From the NCBI GenBank assembly GCA_020631215.1, contig JAHDHS010000017.1, positions 1-42,856 of the forward strand: 42,856 nt of DNA, read 5' to 3'. A program made the translations under genes and the position numbers. The stretch's first letter is position 1. Every line of letters starts with the position of its first letter. The notes below the pieces were generated by a model, which saw only the letters and a list, made by a program, of their open reading frames with translations, was not told the origin of the DNA and did not search any database. Of this stretch, positions 8,046-15,411 are shown in pieces. Source of the stretch: Hellea sp. GTDB taxonomy: Bacteria > Pseudomonadota > Alphaproteobacteria > Caulobacterales > Maricaulaceae.

Positions 8046-8075
8046 CCCCGCCGGGAAGGCGGGGCTGGGATTTTT
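8046..8075 (+). terminator. Intrinsic terminator after tlyA, convergent with the next gene
   Basis: A perfect 7-bp GC stem, CCCCGCC (8046-8052) with GGCGGGG (8058-8064) and loop GGGAA, starts right after the tlyA TAA. A T-run at 8071-8075 follows six bases later. It lies between convergent genes and may stop transcription from both sides, although the minus side lacks a clear T-run. Confidence 0.8.
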
Positions 8076-8667
8076 AGTGGCGACATCCGTGGTGATGTCT
8101 GTGATGATGACCACGGCGACGTTTGTAGTGCCCGCGGCGGCGATAGCTGCGCCCGCCATTATAATAGCCGCCATTGCCGACATTGATGTAAAGTGATGTG
8201 CGCGGACGGCTATAGCCATAACCGCTGTGACCGTAATAATGGCTGCCGCCATAATAAGGCTGATGATAGGTCGTTGTGGTATAGGTTCTGCTGTAAGGCT
8301 GGCTGTAACCATAGCCGCTGCCGTAATATCCGGAATTACCATAGTAATTGGAGCCGCCATAATAGCCGCCCTGATTATAATAGCCATTATGTCGATAACG
8401 GTGATCATTCCGGCCATCTCCGGCGATGGCTGCGCCCGCTACGCCGCCGACGACTGCGCCGAGAACAGAGCCCTCTGTGCGTGCGCCGCTACCGGCAACT
8501 TGCGACCCTAAAACAGCTCCAAGACCTGCGCCAATCAGACCGCCCACCAATTGATTGTCAGTATTGTTTTGATGGTGGTAATATCCGTTGTCATAAGCCG
8601 CCGCTGAGACGGGTGCGAGCGATACAGCTGCAATGGCTGCGATAGTAAATCCGAGTTTGAATTTCAT
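8074..8667 (-). CDS. Secreted glycine-zipper protein, Tyr/Gly-rich, His/Arg tail
   Basis: 197 aa from the ATG at 8667, which has GGAAAG upstream; an upstream in-frame start at 8718 would put 17 unlikely residues ahead of the signal peptide. Residues 1-24 form a signal peptide. Residues 40-83 are a glycine-zipper pair (VGGLIGAGLGAVLGS, then EGSVLGAVVGGVAGAA) of the YMGG/2TM kind thought to insert in or lie against membranes. Residues 88-165 are Tyr/Gly/Ser-rich and low in complexity, and the end is a basic His/Arg cluster with one Cys. It is the last of three adjacent paralogous zipper genes (see 8826-10334 and 10566-11261), each with its own terminator. Function unknown; an envelope or outer-membrane location is inferred from the signal peptide and zipper. 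Confidence 0.85.
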   Translation of the reverse strand: MKFKLGFTIAAIAAVSLAPVSAAAYDNGYYHHQNNTDNQLVGGLIGAGLGAVLGSQVAGSGARTEGSVLGAVVGGVAGAAIAGDGRNDHRYRHNGYYNQGGYYGGSNYYGNSGYYGSGYGYSQPYSRTYTTTTYHQPYYGGSHYYGHSGYGYSRPRTSLYINVGNGGYYNGGRSYRRRGHYKRRRGHHHRHHHGCRH

Positions 8668-8782
8668 AGATCTTTCCTTGAATTTTGTGACACCCGTCCC
8701 TGATGCCTGTCTTAACAATGTCTTAACGTAGCTGAAATTGTCTCGACTTGCAAAGGCTTGAGTCAGTTCACCGCCCTAAACG

Positions 8783-8808
8783 AAAAACGGCGCCACCCGG
8801 GCGCCGTT
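8783..8808 (-). terminator. Intrinsic terminator of the repeat-bearing glycine-zipper gene
   Basis: Reading the minus strand, AACGGCGCC pairs with GGCGCCGTT (plus 8786-8794 and 8800-8808, loop of five). The final A/T pairs merge into a run of five T on the minus strand (8783-8787). It lies 18 bases past the stop codon at 8826. Confidence 0.88.
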
Positions 8809-8825
8809 CTGTGATTTAATATGGC

Positions 8826-10334
8826 TTAGTGTTTATGTTTCTTTTTACACGTTGTGCCATGTGCATCTTTGATCTCTTTGCCGAATTGATCATAGCGTTT
8901 TGAGCTACCTGCGTAGCAATATTCGCCCGTTGTATTGACGTGATTAGACGGGTCATGAACCATATAGGAGTTACCGCTTTCATAGTCATATTCAGAGATG
9001 CCGGCACCTGCCAAAGTGTCACCTGACATGCCTGACATGTCCAGGCATGAACCATCAGCTTGCAGCGATGTGCCAGCCGGACACTCTACTGAACCACCTG
9101 AGATATAGCCGCCGGATGTGCTGCCGCCGGAAATATATCCGCCGTGATCACCGCCGTGACCTGGTATGTCATGGGTGTGCGTGTGTGTGACAGGCGCTGA
9201 TGGGCGGTCAACATATTTGATGACTTCTTTTTCAACAACGCGGTCAACATATTCAACAACCGGACGGTCAACATATTCGACAACCGGACGGTCAACATAT
9301 TCAACGACAGGCTTTTCGACGATTTTTTCAACAGTCTGAACCCGGTCCACATATTGTACGACAGGCTTTTCGACGATCTTCTCAACTTCCTTGACCACCT
9401 CATAGGGGCGATCCACATATTGCACGACCGGCTTCTCAACAATGCGCTCTACCGGCACCTCTTTGATCACCTCATATGGACGGTCAACATATTGCACGAC
9501 AGGTTTTTCAACCACCTTCTCGACAATCTTTTCCTGAATGACGGGACGGTCGACATATTTAACCACAGGGCGGTCAATATGTTTGACGACTGTGCGTGTT
9601 TGAATTTTTGGTGGGGCCTGAACGACCACTGTCCGTGTTTGAACCGGGCGAGGCGCCGGAACCGGATAGGTTGTCGAGACAAATCGGCCGGAATGCACCA
9701 TGTGAGGCGGACGCATAACATGCGGCGTTGCGACAACTGTGCTGGAATAGGACGATGTATAATATCCACCGCCGCTGCCATAGCGCGATGAGCCATAACG
9801 GCTGCCGCCGCCAACTGGGCCGTGATGACCATGATGTGCGTGATGACCGGCGCCGATCGGGCCGCCATAACCGGCACTAGATGACCCATAACGAGACGGG
9901 CTGCGGCCATTGGCCAGAGCATATCCTGCCAGTCCGCCCAGCGCCGCGCCGATGGCTGTGCCTTCTTGGCGCTGTCCTGATCCGGCGAGGTTGGAGCCTA
10001 AAGCTCCGCCCAGACCTGCGCCGATGGCTGTGCCCGCCAGATTGCGCCCGTTAAATCCGGGATTAAATGATCCTGCATAAGGGTTGCCGCCATAACGGCT
10101 CTGACTGTTGCCATAGGCCGCTCCGGCCAGTCCGCCAAGCGTTGCGCCAATGGCGGTATATTCGTCGCCCATGCCGTTTGGCGCCAGGTTTGATCCCAGA
10201 GCGCCGCCCAGACCCGCGCCGACAGCGCCGCCAAGAACGGTATTATTATCCAGCCCGCCAAAAAGCTGCGCATGCGCAACAGCCGGGGACAGACTTAAAG
10301 CGGCAATGGCCGCACCAGTTAAAAGGACTTTCAT
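8826..10334 (-). CDS. Secreted double glycine-zipper protein with YVDRP/EKIVEKPVV repeats
   Basis: 502 aa from the ATG at 10334, preceded by GAGGAG at good spacing; the upstream in-frame start at 10442 lacks such a site and sits ahead of the signal peptide. Order: signal peptide (1-23, ending AHAQ); two copies of a glycine zipper (about 33-75 and 97-141, each containing GAGLGGALGSNL); a Gly/Ser/Tyr/His-rich stretch (145-200); a Pro-rich link; a repeat array at about 251-378 with eight YVDR units and one HIDR unit alternating with EKIVEKPVV-type units; a His/Gly-rich spacer; and a Cys-containing C-terminal domain (C418, C430, C473, C496) beginning ECPAGTSLQADGSC. The array resembles the Val/Pro/charged repeats of eukaryotic alveolins in style; homology is not claimed. 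Function unknown; an exported, possibly fibrous or envelope-linking protein is inferred. Confidence 0.85.
   Translation of the reverse strand: MKVLLTGAAIAALSLSPAVAHAQLFGGLDNNTVLGGAVGAGLGGALGSNLAPNGMGDEYTAIGATLGGLAGAAYGNSQSRYGGNPYAGSFNPGFNGRNLAGTAIGAGLGGALGSNLAGSGQRQEGTAIGAALGGLAGYALANGRSPSRYGSSSAGYGGPIGAGHHAHHGHHGPVGGGSRYGSSRYGSGGGYYTSSYSSTVVATPHVMRPPHMVHSGRFVSTTYPVPAPRPVQTRTVVVQAPPKIQTRTVVKHIDRPVVKYVDRPVIQEKIVEKVVEKPVVQYVDRPYEVIKEVPVERIVEKPVVQYVDRPYEVVKEVEKIVEKPVVQYVDRVQTVEKIVEKPVVEYVDRPVVEYVDRPVVEYVDRVVEKEVIKYVDRPSAPVTHTHTHDIPGHGGDHGGYISGGSTSGGYISGGSVECPAGTSLQADGSCLDMSGMSGDTLAGAGISEYDYESGNSYMVHDPSNHVNTTGEYCYAGSSKRYDQFGKEIKDAHGTTCKKKHKH
9201..9584 (-). repeat. In-frame coding repeat array (YVDRP units)
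   Basis: On the plus strand CGGTCAACATATT and close variants recur at irregular spacing, encoding YVDR on the minus strand. The three units nearest 9241-9305 are almost identical 27-bp tandem copies; others are separated by EKIVEKP spacers. Reading frame is kept throughout, so this is a protein repeat and not an intergenic array. Near-identical neighbours suggest recent unit duplication. Confidence 0.9.
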
Positions 10335-10514
10335 TGTTACAGGCTCCTCATTGCCAATATATATTTCACCAAATTTGAGGATGCTTTCACAATCCCCACC
10401 ACAGCACTTCGGCCGCCACGCTTGCTTTGATGCAAGTCTCACGCCAGCTCATAGATTCGGTAACATGAATGCAGGCTGGCAACAAAAGAACTCGCCTGAA
10501 ACGGGAATCCTCAT

Positions 10515-10541
10515 AAAAAAACCCCAACCAAAAGGTTGGGG
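10515..10541 (-). terminator. Intrinsic terminator of the third glycine-zipper gene
   Basis: On the minus strand CCCCAACC-TTTT-GGTTGGGG (plus 10522-10541) is a perfect 8-bp stem followed by seven T (plus 10515-10521). It lies 24 bases beyond the stop at 10566. Confidence 0.93.
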
Positions 10542-10565
10542 CCGTTCTTTGGGGGAATTTGGGGT

Positions 10566-11261
10566 CTAGTGATCCGAATAACAGATGTTCGACCCGTGAT
10601 AGTGTCCGCGCCTGGTTGGGCGGTAATCGCGGCGGTAATCATTCGCGTAACGCTTCAAATATTTTTTCTCGCGCTTCAGGTCCTGAATTTCCCGATCAAT
10701 CTGTTTTAGGCGGCGACGCTCATATTTGCGGCTGTAATGGCCATACCCATTTTTTAGATATTTACGCTCATCCCGTAAATCGGCCAGACGGCGGTCAATG
10801 CGGCGCAATTTACGCGCGGTACGGCGATCATAACGATCATAGCGGTTATTTCCGTAATAATCATCATAGCCGCGTGTGCGATGTCCATAGGATCCGTGGC
10901 TGCCATGACTGCCGTGATAAGCGACTGGCGTGGCTGTCCGGTAACCGCGTGTGGTCGTGGTATAACCCCGGCGGGACTTATATTTCTCACAATCATTGAC
11001 GCCGTCACCGACCGCTGCGCCCAATGTGCCGCCAATCAGCGCGCCAAGAACCGCGCCTTCGGTGTTATCACCGCGTCCGGCAATTTCCTTGCCGACAACC
11101 GCGCCCAGCGAACCGCCCACAACGGCGCCGGCCACAGCATTTTCTGTGTCCTTACACTTTTCATAGCGGTAATCACCAGCTTGCGCGATGGCGGGGGTTA
11201 GCATTGTGGCCGCAGCCAATGTGACCGCAGCGAGTGATGTTTTTGAAAATAGATTTCTCAT
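10566..11261 (-). CDS. Secreted glycine-zipper protein with duplicated basic coiled segment
   Basis: 231 aa; ATG at 11261 preceded by AGGAG. A signal peptide (about 1-28, ending AQAG) leads into a glycine-zipper pair at 42-90 (AGAVVGGSLGAVVGKE and EGAVLGALIGGTLGAAVG) flanked by two Cys (36 and 91). Residues 96-146 are Gly/Tyr/His/Arg-rich. Residues 152-203 contain two related basic helical segments, LRRIDRRLADLRDERKYLK and LKQIDREIQDLKREKKYLK, 33 residues apart, probably coiled coils; the tail ends CYSDH. It is the first transcribed of the zipper trio, with its own terminator. The basic coiled part could bind anionic envelope polymers or another protein; this is a guess. Confidence 0.87.
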   Translation of the reverse strand: MRNLFSKTSLAAVTLAAATMLTPAIAQAGDYRYEKCKDTENAVAGAVVGGSLGAVVGKEIAGRGDNTEGAVLGALIGGTLGAAVGDGVNDCEKYKSRRGYTTTTRGYRTATPVAYHGSHGSHGSYGHRTRGYDDYYGNNRYDRYDRRTARKLRRIDRRLADLRDERKYLKNGYGHYSRKYERRRLKQIDREIQDLKREKKYLKRYANDYRRDYRPTRRGHYHGSNICYSDH

Positions 11262-12573: not shown

Positions 12574-14532
12574 TTAGAAGAACATGTCATCCAAGCTTTT
12601 TTCGCTCTTGGAGTGGCCGTCTTTGCTTTTGGAGATATGCAGGTTCACCATTTTATTGATCTCATGCAGCATGGTATCAATCTCATCAAAGGCGGCTTCT
12701 ATTTTCTTATGGTATTTCGGATCTTCACCCAAATAGGCTTCGGTGACATCTGTGGTGTTCTGAGTGCGGGGATCATGTAAGCACAGCGTGATCTCCCCGT
12801 CTTTGACCGAAGCAGACAGTTTAGTGCCATATTCCGGGCTTTTAGTGCCATGTTTTAATAATTGGGTCGGGCGGGCGGTGGAGAGGCATTTGGTCATGCA
12901 GTCAGTGAACTTTTTCACCAAAGCACCCTGAAAGACCAGATTGTCCAGATTGGTGTAATATTTTCCAACCTCGCCATTATCCCAGGTTGGATATAAAATC
13001 GGAACAAATTCATCCTGGCTTTTAGGTTTCTTGACTTTGATGACGCGCCAAATGGGCTTCAAATTATACCCCTCAATATAGGCCCAGCGCCGGGAACCCG
13101 CCGGTTTAATTTTGAAAATCATCTCCGCCTCGATCAGGCGGTCATAAAAAGGCATGATATAGGCTTGATCAACTTTGACCTTATTCATCCGGTAGGCCAG
13201 GTTCAGCACATTGTCAGAGGCTCGCATGGCAAAATCCTCAAGGATTTTTTCCGTTCTGTTAAAGTCGATGTTAATGACCCAATAAGCCGCAAAAAATTCC
13301 TGAAAGGAGCGGTGAATAAATAAATAGCTCATCCCATCTTTTTTGATCAGGTTTACCGCATCAATCACTTCATGCATAAACTGATCAATCGTACAGGTAA
13401 TCTTATCGGGGCCGTCCTTCGTTAAATTGACGTGATCAATCGATCTTTGGATGTATTCACGAATTTCAGCTTCGCGAAGTTCAAATTTTTCCTGATAATA
13501 GGTGAACATGCAAAAGGTGGAAAAGACCAAGCGAAACTCATTGATGCTCAAACAATGTGGTCGCTTATAGGATTCTTTGATGGCGTCATGTTCGGAATAA
13601 AGCGCGTGAAAGGCGTTGTCGTAAAAGTCGATGATATTATCGGCAATATCGGCTTTTTGCCGATAGGTGACCAACATCATGAGCGCCAGCAGAGGGGATG
13701 ATAAAAACTCTTCATAGCGTTTGAAGAATTTCTTCGTGATCATATTTTTGAAGCGATTTGTTAAATCTTTGGGCAGGGGCGTCTTGCTGATAAGGTCCAG
13801 CGTTTGAGCCCGGGTAAAGGGATTGACGTCATAAATTTGAAAGGCTTTCCATCCGACGAAAGTTTCATTCGGACGGCTGCTGATCACGATGCTGCATTTT
13901 TTAAAATATTGTTCAAATTCCAACAGTTGCCGCTCTACGGCCTCGCGCTTTTCAAGTGAAACTTCATCAAAGCCGTCAAAGATCAAGAGAAACGACCCAT
14001 CTGCGGCAATCTCTCGAAACAGGTCGAGTTTCATTTCTTTACCGGCTGAGAGCGTATAACGCATGAGGGTCAGGATATCGACATCTTCCATGTCGTTGAA
14101 TTTTCTAAGCTCAATAAAAACAGGGATTTTACCTTCCGGCTCCTCATAAACGCTTTTCCATAATTTCTTCATGAATAAGGTTTTGCCGGATCCGCCATCA
14201 CCTCGCACAACGACGCGTTTTCCGTCCCGAATGTCACTGATCAAAGAGTGGTCATCAATCGAAGCGCTTTGGGCATCTTTGACATGAAAACTGCATGGGA
14301 CATAGACGTCATTCAATTCAGAATTGATTGAACGTGAGCAGATCAATTGTACCGTAGAGGTCTTGCCATTGGTTCGGTCGAGATAATCTTCAAAATTGGT
14401 GAAATGCTTCTCAATCTTGACCCTGATTTTGCTTTGTAGGGTCGGCTGTAAGCGGTTCCAGAAATCTTTGGCGGTTTTCAGGTAATTGGCTGTTTTGATT
14501 ACAGTGCCGACAGTTGCGCTTGGCTCCAGCAC
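12574..14532 (-). CDS. NACHT-family STAND NTPase, candidate antiphage protein
   Basis: About 652 aa from a GTG at 14532 with GGGAG six bases upstream; a TTG at 14547 would add five residues without a good site, and a stop lies just above. Numbering from the TTG: a helical N-terminal segment of about 110 residues; Walker A GDGGSGKT (116-123); Walker B LLIFDGFDEV (187-196); sensor SSRPNE (223-228); and the winged-helix-region motif FIHRSFQEFFAAYW (410-423) characteristic of NACHT proteins. The last about 230 residues show no LRR, WD40, TPR or other repeat, and no nuclease, TIR or membrane effector domain is visible. Bacterial NACHT proteins of this short layout include experimentally shown phage-defence genes. 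The gene looks richer in A/T than its neighbours and stands alone, consistent with transfer. The immune role is inferred. Confidence 0.88.
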   Translation of the reverse strand: MLEPSATVGTVIKTANYLKTAKDFWNRLQPTLQSKIRVKIEKHFTNFEDYLDRTNGKTSTVQLICSRSINSELNDVYVPCSFHVKDAQSASIDDHSLISDIRDGKRVVVRGDGGSGKTLFMKKLWKSVYEEPEGKIPVFIELRKFNDMEDVDILTLMRYTLSAGKEMKLDLFREIAADGSFLLIFDGFDEVSLEKREAVERQLLEFEQYFKKCSIVISSRPNETFVGWKAFQIYDVNPFTRAQTLDLISKTPLPKDLTNRFKNMITKKFFKRYEEFLSSPLLALMMLVTYRQKADIADNIIDFYDNAFHALYSEHDAIKESYKRPHCLSINEFRLVFSTFCMFTYYQEKFELREAEIREYIQRSIDHVNLTKDGPDKITCTIDQFMHEVIDAVNLIKKDGMSYLFIHRSFQEFFAAYWVINIDFNRTEKILEDFAMRASDNVLNLAYRMNKVKVDQAYIMPFYDRLIEAEMIFKIKPAGSRRWAYIEGYNLKPIWRVIKVKKPKSQDEFVPILYPTWDNGEVGKYYTNLDNLVFQGALVKKFTDCMTKCLSTARPTQLLKHGTKSPEYGTKLSASVKDGEITLCLHDPRTQNTTDVTEAYLGEDPKYHKKIEAAFDEIDTMLHEINKMVNLHISKSKDGHSKSEKSLDDMFF

Positions 14533-14629
14533 TTTACGCTCCCACAATTCTACAAGACTTTGTCATGACCCGATTTTGGTAATGATTTTATGCGGTCAGT
14601 CAATTGATGCTTTGTTATGCTGGTTTTGG

Positions 14630-14652
14630 GTGTTTCGCTGTGTTGGAAACAC
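14630..14652. promoter_or_regulatory. Inverted repeat between the NACHT gene and gcrA
   Basis: GTGTTTC (14630-14636) and GAAACAC (14646-14652) form a perfect 7-bp dyad with a 9-base centre. No T-run follows, so it resembles an operator more than a terminator. It lies about 100 bp upstream of the NACHT start and 165 bp upstream of gcrA in a divergent, A/T-rich intergenic region (14548-14817). Whether any protein binds it is unknown. Confidence 0.4.
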
Positions 14653-14660
14653 AATATATT

Positions 14661-14675
14661 GATTCCTGTGGATAG
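14661..14675. promoter_or_regulatory. GANTC site and DnaA-box-like sequence upstream of gcrA
   Basis: GATTC at 14661-14665 matches the CcrM methylation site GANTC. Two bases on, the minus strand of 14667-14675 reads CTATCCACA, one mismatch from the DnaA box TTATNCACA. In Caulobacter, DnaA activates gcrA and CcrM methylation modulates GcrA targets, so the pairing fits the downstream gene. A single short match of each kind can arise by chance. Confidence 0.35.
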
Positions 14676-14817
14676 AGTGCGGGAAAGATATTGTGGTTTG
14701 CGTTGGGTTTGATACGATATATGGTGTAAATACAGGCTTAAGGCCTAAATCAAAATCAATATATAGGGGGTTAGCACCAGTTTTGGGGCTTTGCGCCCTA
14801 ATTCGAAGGAAAAACTC

Positions 14818-15336
14818 ATGGCTTGGACCGATGATCGCGTGGCAATACTCACCAAATTATGGGCTGAGGGCCTTTCAGCCAGCCAGATAGCCAAACAGCT
14901 TGGCGGCGTGACCCGCAATGCCGTCATAGGTAAGGTGCATCGTCTGGGCCTTTCCGGCAGGGCCAAGCCATCCTCTCCGCGCAAAAAGGCTGCGGGAACA
15001 ACGCGCAAGGCGGCGCCGAGAAAACGTACGACCCGTGCGCCATCTGTCCCGCGCACCCCGCGGGTTGTGGCGGCGGCTCCGCCTCCACCGCCTCCTTTGG
15101 AGGCCAAGCCGATGGCCAATGGTGAATTTGCGACTATTCTGACAATCACTGACCATATGTGTAAATGGCCGATAGGCGATCCATCCAAGTCTGATTTCCG
15201 CTTTTGTGGTCGCAAGACCGACCCGGAAGAGCCTTATTGCATCGCTCACTCTCAGGTGGCCTACCAACCATCCCGCCGCCGCGGCAGTAAAATCGCCATT
15301 GGCCCGAACCCAACCAGCCGCAAACGGCTTCGGTAA
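14818..15336 (+). CDS. gcrA: GcrA cell-cycle regulator
   Basis: 172 aa from the ATG at 14818 with GAAGGA upstream; a TTG at 14791 is rejected because GcrA proteins begin MAWTDDRV. The N-terminal DNA-binding domain (about residues 1-45) contains LWAEGLSASQIAKQLGG and TRNAVIGKVHRLGLSG. A basic Ala/Pro/Arg linker with a run of six Pro follows, then the C-terminal RNA-polymerase sigma-factor-interacting domain with CKWPIGDP, FCGR and YCIAHS cysteines and histidine. GcrA binds the housekeeping sigma factor and promoters with methylated GANTC sites, driving S-phase genes in Caulobacter and relatives. Its presence places the organism among alphaproteobacteria. The upstream region carries a GANTC site and a DnaA-box-like sequence; a terminator follows. 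Confidence 0.97.
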   Translation: MAWTDDRVAILTKLWAEGLSASQIAKQLGGVTRNAVIGKVHRLGLSGRAKPSSPRKKAAGTTRKAAPRKRTTRAPSVPRTPRVVAAAPPPPPPLEAKPMANGEFATILTITDHMCKWPIGDPSKSDFRFCGRKTDPEEPYCIAHSQVAYQPSRRRGSKIAIGPNPTSRKRLR

Positions 15337-15358
15337 TGGTTTGAATAAATAATGATAA

Positions 15359-15381
15359 GGCCGCCTTTAAGGCGGCTTTTT
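15359..15381 (+). terminator. Intrinsic terminator after gcrA
   Basis: GCCGCC (15360-15365), loop TTTAA, GGCGGC (15371-15376), followed by TTTTTC. It lies about 23 bases after the gcrA stop and isolates gcrA from sdaA. Confidence 0.9.
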
Positions 15382-15411
15382 CTTTGCCCTGTTCTAGGAT
15401 AAAGCCGCGCT

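Follow-up and report, generated by a model that had tools for sequence, protein, structure and literature searches.

Clade 14 of the bacterial NACHT (bNACHT) proteins comprises members that contain SNaCT domains and in which effectors are not readily discernible (PMC12169576). The same study reports protection against both DNA and RNA phages by bNACHT02 and bNACHT12 of this clade, and protection against T4 by bNACHT11 and bNACHT12 with DnaJ dispensable for both (PMC12169576). This agrees with a sequence-only reading of the DNA studied here, which stated that short NACHT proteins with a small C-terminal domain protect against phages. We analyzed a 42,856-nucleotide stretch of DNA from Hellea sp. 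(contig JAHDHS010000017.1), which we call the window, and found that it contains a gene for a protein of similar architecture. From comparisons with its homologues, this gene probably constitutes by itself an anti-phage system, of the short-NACHT type whose members bear SNaCT domains (clade 14).

The gene lies in an open reading frame on the minus strand at 12574-14547 for which the listed start is TTG and the predicted length 657 aa. A GTG at 14532 gives a 652-aa protein (P0001). This GTG, rather than the TTG at 14547, is the likely start because GGGAG is located 6 nt upstream of it and a full-length Hellea homologue begins at the equivalent residue. The homologue is 58% identical, has its first residue at the position of the GTG-14532 start and has an in-frame stop just 5' of it. 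The predicted features are collected in Table 1.

Table 1. Predicted features of the short NACHT gene in the window and the evidence for each.
Feature	Position	Strand	Evidence or remark
Short NACHT protein gene	12574..14532	-	652 aa, GTG start, TAA stop at 12574-12576
Probable ribosome-binding site GGGAG	14539..14543	-	Read in the sequence, 6 nt before the GTG; putative function
N-terminal domain, residues 1-104	14221..14532	-	hhalign P 97.2 to enterobacterial/Vibrio short NACHTs; composition
NACHT NTPase domain, residues 106-249	13786..14217	-	Pfam PF05729
Walker A GDGGSGKT, residues 111-118	14179..14202	-	Alignment and sequence
Walker B FLLIFDGFDE, residues 181-190	13963..13992	-	Alignment and sequence
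SSRP, residues 218-221, with probable sensor arginine R220	13870..13881	-	Alignment and sequence
FIHRSFQEFFAAYW motif, residues 405-418	13279..13320	-	Alignment and sequence
C-terminal domain, residues 426-652, probable sensor	12577..13257	-	SNaCT position and length; no SNaCT model match

The window protein exceeded the curated Pfam cut-off for NACHT (PF05729; 42.9 bits, E 6e-11, cut-off 26.7) and its Walker A, Walker B, SSRP and FIHRSFQEFFAAYW motifs are all intact. Across 57 aligned proteins, no variation occurs at residues G114, G116, K117, D186, D189, E190, R220, P280 and H407. The NACHT motifs named in the sequence-only reading are therefore all present with key residues invariant, and its estimates of an N-terminus of about 110 residues and a C-terminus of about 230 agree with the 110 residues before Walker A and the 234 after the last motif. 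NACHT alone reached its cut-off in the Pfam scan of the protein, and no N-terminal effector domain was matched at E<=1 by a Pfam model starting before about residue 96. The sole match to PADLOC models at E<=1 was mad8 (11.5 bits, residues 105-162), which covers the P-loop only, and a scan with NCBIfam models gave partial matches to DS8 and HyoA far below cut-off plus P-loop matches. A profile search of solved structures chiefly aligned the NACHT region with animal NLRs, together with weak P-loop matches, and the window gene is a relative of the human inflammasome sensors.

Homologues were found by scanning at a minimum of 55 loci in genome contigs, on 25 predicted viral contigs, in 158 plasmid records (101 from Klebsiella) and in two phage records, both Vibrio. 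We aligned the window protein with 73 homologues chosen by length and coverage, giving 74 rows. A three-part layout, defined as 100-145 residues before the Walker A column and 170-245 after the HRSFQE motif in frames read stop to stop, was shared by 66 of the 74 proteins including that of the window; the remaining eight have longer 5' frames (L066, L068, L069, L032), a short 5' part (L028, L035), or are misplaced or different (L037, L056). The window protein is about 22% identical to the Klebsiella and 25% identical to the E. coli plasmid relatives. The Klebsiella plasmid homologue WP_015632533.1, which we take to be bNACHT01 and presumably a clade 14 member, adjoins CBASS-like genes. An Agrobacterium plasmid homologue is located near RloB and TIR genes, and a Vibrio homologue is annotated in its record as NLR_like_bNACHT01. 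On a plasmid of Bartonella sp. HY038 the homologue (L094, 5980-7877) is split into two annotated genes and is therefore probably inactive.

Across the 57 aligned homologues, the Pfam list, which shows 25 of its 33 families, gave at least 25 SNaCT matches without assigning them to individual members; those listed comprise 13 for SNaCT7, six for SNaCT13, two for SNaCT8 and one each for SNaCT11, 5, 6 and 12. Individual labels are known for L024, L036, L095 and eight long proteins, with SNaCT13 in L024 and SNaCT7 in L036; SNaCT11 occurs in the Vibrio NLR_like_bNACHT01 relative. Seven of the ten relatives scanned, including Klebsiella, E. coli and Kosakonia plasmid relatives, L010, L007 and L076, had no SNaCT model match, so proteins of this group often match no SNaCT model of Pfam. 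We built a FastTree tree of the NACHT-HD region from 86 proteins found with the window query. In it, the window protein joins three Hellea orthologues (support 1.0); a wider group takes in further proteins of Alphaproteobacteria (0.98) and is nested in a set that holds the SNaCT-labelled proteins (0.98). The placement points to a short NACHT protein like the SNaCT-bearing ones of clade 14, where we infer the clade number because support is weak at several inner nodes and the tree contains no reference proteins from other bNACHT clades. The protein did not group with a non-immune NTPase family in the tree, the outcome that the sequence-only reading had named as contrary to its proposal.

Nine longer Firmicutes proteins belong to this clade of the tree. 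Among ten long proteins scanned, SNaCT14 was matched in eight; in these eight NACHT starts at frame residue 229-398 and no Pfam match lies ahead of it. The Firmicutes SNaCT14 NACHT proteins (L043, L045, L046, L047, L048, L053, L055, L060) have roughly 120-290 extra residues before NACHT, counted stop to stop, with no Pfam match at E<=0.01; this stretch is a candidate uncharacterized effector domain.

Comparison with the short-NACHT C-terminal domains, proposed in the sequence-only reading as a check, gave a mixed answer: the NACHT region groups with SNaCT-bearing proteins, and the C-terminus matches no SNaCT model. The SNaCT13 and SNaCT7 models did not match the window gene at E<=10, and the other SNaCT models, compared with it through the Pfam scan only, gave no match to its C-terminus. 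When hand-chosen groups were compared with hhalign, the C-terminus of the window group matched a mixed group with L024 (SNaCT13) among its members at P 97.5, a Firmicutes group at P 40.6 and the enterobacterial/Vibrio group at only P 5.5, and from residue 480 on it matched no group (P 0.1-0.4). Past residue 445 the C-termini form 22 sequence clusters. There, the three Hellea orthologues are the only proteins in the cluster of the window protein, and the best match of the latter outside this cluster is 41 residues long (P 34.5). Even among the Hellea orthologues the C-terminal domain is the least conserved part. It is SNaCT-like in position and length only. Because no SNaCT model matches it and, past residue 445, no long profile match lies outside the cluster, we treat it as a SNaCT-position domain of a putative uncatalogued family. 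The protein is of a known kind; it adds to the effector-less short bNACHTs an alphaproteobacterial branch with a C-terminal domain of its own.

By contrast with 16 N-versus-C control comparisons (P at most 0.4), the N-terminal domain of the window group matched that of the enterobacterial/Vibrio group at P 97.2 over the latter's whole domain, and we therefore regard it as a shared family feature. Its composition was compared in 68 of the 74 rows, after six that were cut, misplaced or duplicate had been dropped and starts had been set by a script rule. The first 25 residues contain 41% G/A/S/T/V versus 26% in the rest of the protein, and 26% D/E/K/R/N/Q/H versus 37%. Ranked against blocks of the same protein, the N-terminal block had a median hydrophobicity percentile of 86 (above 50 in 60 of 68) versus 55 for 72 control proteins from gcrA loci (above 50 in 38); p-values from this test are overstated because the proteins are related and so not independent of one another. 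The bias is in part ordinary, since the first 25 residues of the controls contain 34% G/A/S/T/V and 30% polar residues. The window protein's own segment is at the 68th percentile versus the family median at the 86th. This bias fits a membrane-acting first helix, and a helical-bundle core would give the same signal. Plant and fungal NLRs that act at membranes provide a parallel for first-helix insertion. The homologue set thus gives a testable idea, namely that the effector may be this N-terminal segment, which is hydrophobic and rich in small residues. We put forward, tentatively and as a possibility rather than a probability, a joint reading in which a short-NACHT family without an enzymatic effector would use its N-terminal domain as the effector, a small-residue-rich hydrophobic first helix being released on oligomerization to enter the inner membrane, and in which the C-termini of the window and Hellea proteins would form a sensor family outside the catalogued SNaCTs. 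The sequence-only reading had overstated the case in suggesting a new killing mechanism. The lack of a discernible effector is a published trait of clade 14 (PMC12169576), and the idea is therefore a question about the family and not a discovery at this locus.

It is also conceivable that the N-terminal domain is an adaptor only and that this NACHT signaling protein recruits an unlinked host effector. Such a role would be consistent with a domain that is short, conserved as a family trait and free of Pfam matches to catalytic domains (E<=1) in its first 95 residues. However, the homologues are spread over many bacterial groups, plasmids and viral contigs, with no recurrent neighbor, and a specific unlinked partner would therefore be needed in all of those hosts, making this explanation unlikely. 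No neighbor family was present at more than three of 68 homologous loci, in a search of up to three ORFs on each side by blastp on mechanical ORFs that overlooks distant relatives and short genes. When 150 of the 246 neighbor proteins were scanned with PADLOC and Pfam, a mixture of defense, phage and housekeeping families came out, not assigned to individual proteins, and we claim no enrichment from it. Each Hellea copy has a small gene beside it whose product looks exported; this was considered as a recurrent partner and rejected, as the three show no similarity.

The window gene has a G+C content of 44.1%, the lowest of the 32 genes in the window, the other 31 having 48.6-58.8%. It is the only NACHT match in its own genome (assembly 96% complete) and is flanked by an alpha/beta-hydrolase esterase gene and gcrA. 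The lone position and A/T-richness noted in the sequence-only reading were thus both borne out. Matches at E<=0.001 were found in 5 of 100 relatives and in 7 of the 137 genomes of the GTDB family, own genome included; full-length matches were restricted to four of the 137, the window and three of genus g19, which contains Hellea. The three Hellea orthologues, mutually 71-77% identical, lie in three neighborhoods that have no gene in common but the NACHT gene, and no convincing DNA match was found outside the gene between the window, L010, L012 and L006. Thus, the window gene is accessory, and it was probably acquired horizontally.

The position of the gene, divergent beside the cell-cycle regulator gcrA, could suggest instead a housekeeping or regulatory STAND NTPase tied to gcrA and the cell cycle. 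We consider this very improbable: a gcrA match is present in all 17 genus-mates and a full-length NACHT counterpart in none of them, the sole genus-mate match (37% identical) is at another locus and not near its gcrA, the Hellea orthologues are in three unrelated places, and the gene is compositionally distinct. Conservation at the same locus, which the sequence-only reading had set against its own proposal, was therefore not seen. The surroundings of gcrA were read in 12 of the 17 genus-mates; in all 12, a gene that we take to be permease-like is divergent near gcrA, within 1 kb in nine and within 3-6.5 kb in three, whereas in the window genome it sits on contig C56. A presumably argD-like gene is near gcrA in 11 of these 12 and is here together with the permease-like gene on C56; the gcrA neighborhood is rearranged here (window 14500-15400; L130-L141, L194). 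On the other side, a presumably aroC-like gene is 5' of the esterase gene in five of five relatives read, and the window has no counterpart. The NACHT gene thus sits where two old blocks have been newly joined. We therefore give the gcrA neighborhood no functional weight, and gcrA is probably an incidental neighbor.

Since both flanking blocks are without their usual neighbors, a clean empty site cannot be demonstrated for the window itself. One is available for the Hellea orthologue L010, which lies between ruvB and a conserved gene of about 150 residues. There, roughly 3.6 kb (L010, 6354-9979) containing the NACHT gene, a gene for an exported-looking small protein and one ORF separates ruvB from its usual neighbor. 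Nine of ten genomes of this genus have a strong ruvB match, and surroundings were read in six of the eight others. The two genes are directly adjacent in four of these six; the fifth has only a 24-residue piece of the ~150-residue gene by ruvB, and in the sixth, where the contig ends shortly, that gene was not found. This is an empty-site comparison for L010. Inverted and target-site repeats were considered as a mobility signal and only short pairs, read as chance, were found.

A defense-island context was considered for the window gene and rejected, as its neighbors are the esterase gene, glycine-zipper protein genes, gcrA and a gene that is presumably serine ammonia-lyase-like. Three adjoining same-strand glycine-zipper (Rick_17kDa/YMGG) genes are located beside the esterase gene at window 8074-11261, and genes akin to them recur beside the esterase gene in relatives. 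As a probable single-gene immune receptor settled among ordinary genes, the window gene is an example of what defense-island searches would miss.

The N- and C-terminal parts of the window protein are 48-52% identical to the Hellea orthologues and the NACHT and helical parts 62-73%, a pattern that fits a constrained engine with faster-changing ends. A decaying or inactive immigrant gene, suggested by the distinct composition and rearranged site, is highly unlikely, given that the frame is open, all motifs are intact and, for each domain in each pair among the window and the three orthologues, pS is higher than pN, although this measure is rough with dS near saturation. The window gene is probably functional.

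An accessory, patchily distributed gene with no recurrent partner is as expected of a self-contained defense gene. By analogy with its family, the window gene is most likely a one-gene abortive-infection sensor-effector. Resting as an ADP-bound monomer, the protein would sense a phage product or phage-caused disturbance through its variable C-terminal domain, as suggested by the family. Nucleotide exchange would then cause the NACHT module to oligomerize, as in STAND proteins generally, and the clustered N-terminal domains would halt growth or cause cell death before phages are released, an outcome again modeled on the family. Our guess is that the N-terminal domain itself kills, perhaps by inserting its first helix into the membrane. 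Grouping with short NACHTs, patchiness and the lack of a recurrent partner favor the self-contained immune sensor-effector proposed in the sequence-only reading, which is thus supported in part. A literature search found no defense experiment on the window protein or its Hellea orthologues and no other study of the latter.

The clade 6 proteins bNACHT25 and bNACHT32 are bacterial NACHT anti-phage proteins, as proposed for the window protein, but differ in that a nuclease precedes the NACHT domain and NCH1 forms the C-terminus, and bNACHT25 requires DnaJ (PMC12169576). A clade 6 (bNACHT25-type) identity was rejected, as the window protein has no Pfam match to a PD-(D/E)XK nuclease or NCH1 at E<=1. 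The anti-phage protein DS8 (NCBIfam NF053861) is similar to window residues 66-255 at 46.6 bits; however, its cut-off is 790 bits and the match starts only at position 323 of a 994-position model. The Hellea short NACHTs L010, L012 and L006 are 57-59% identical to the window protein over its full length, with the same start and C-terminal end, and differ from the window gene in genomic place. The clade 14 proteins (bNACHT02, 11 and 12 in PMC12169576) differ in that the window C-terminus matches no Pfam SNaCT family and the gene is at a chromosomal site among ordinary genes of an alphaproteobacterial host. Like the window protein, they are short, three-part proteins with no discernible effector, and the two share a homologous N-terminal domain, a NACHT region that groups with SNaCT-bearing proteins and a single-gene organization; the relatives of the window protein also occur in mobile-element contexts, a further likeness to clade 14.
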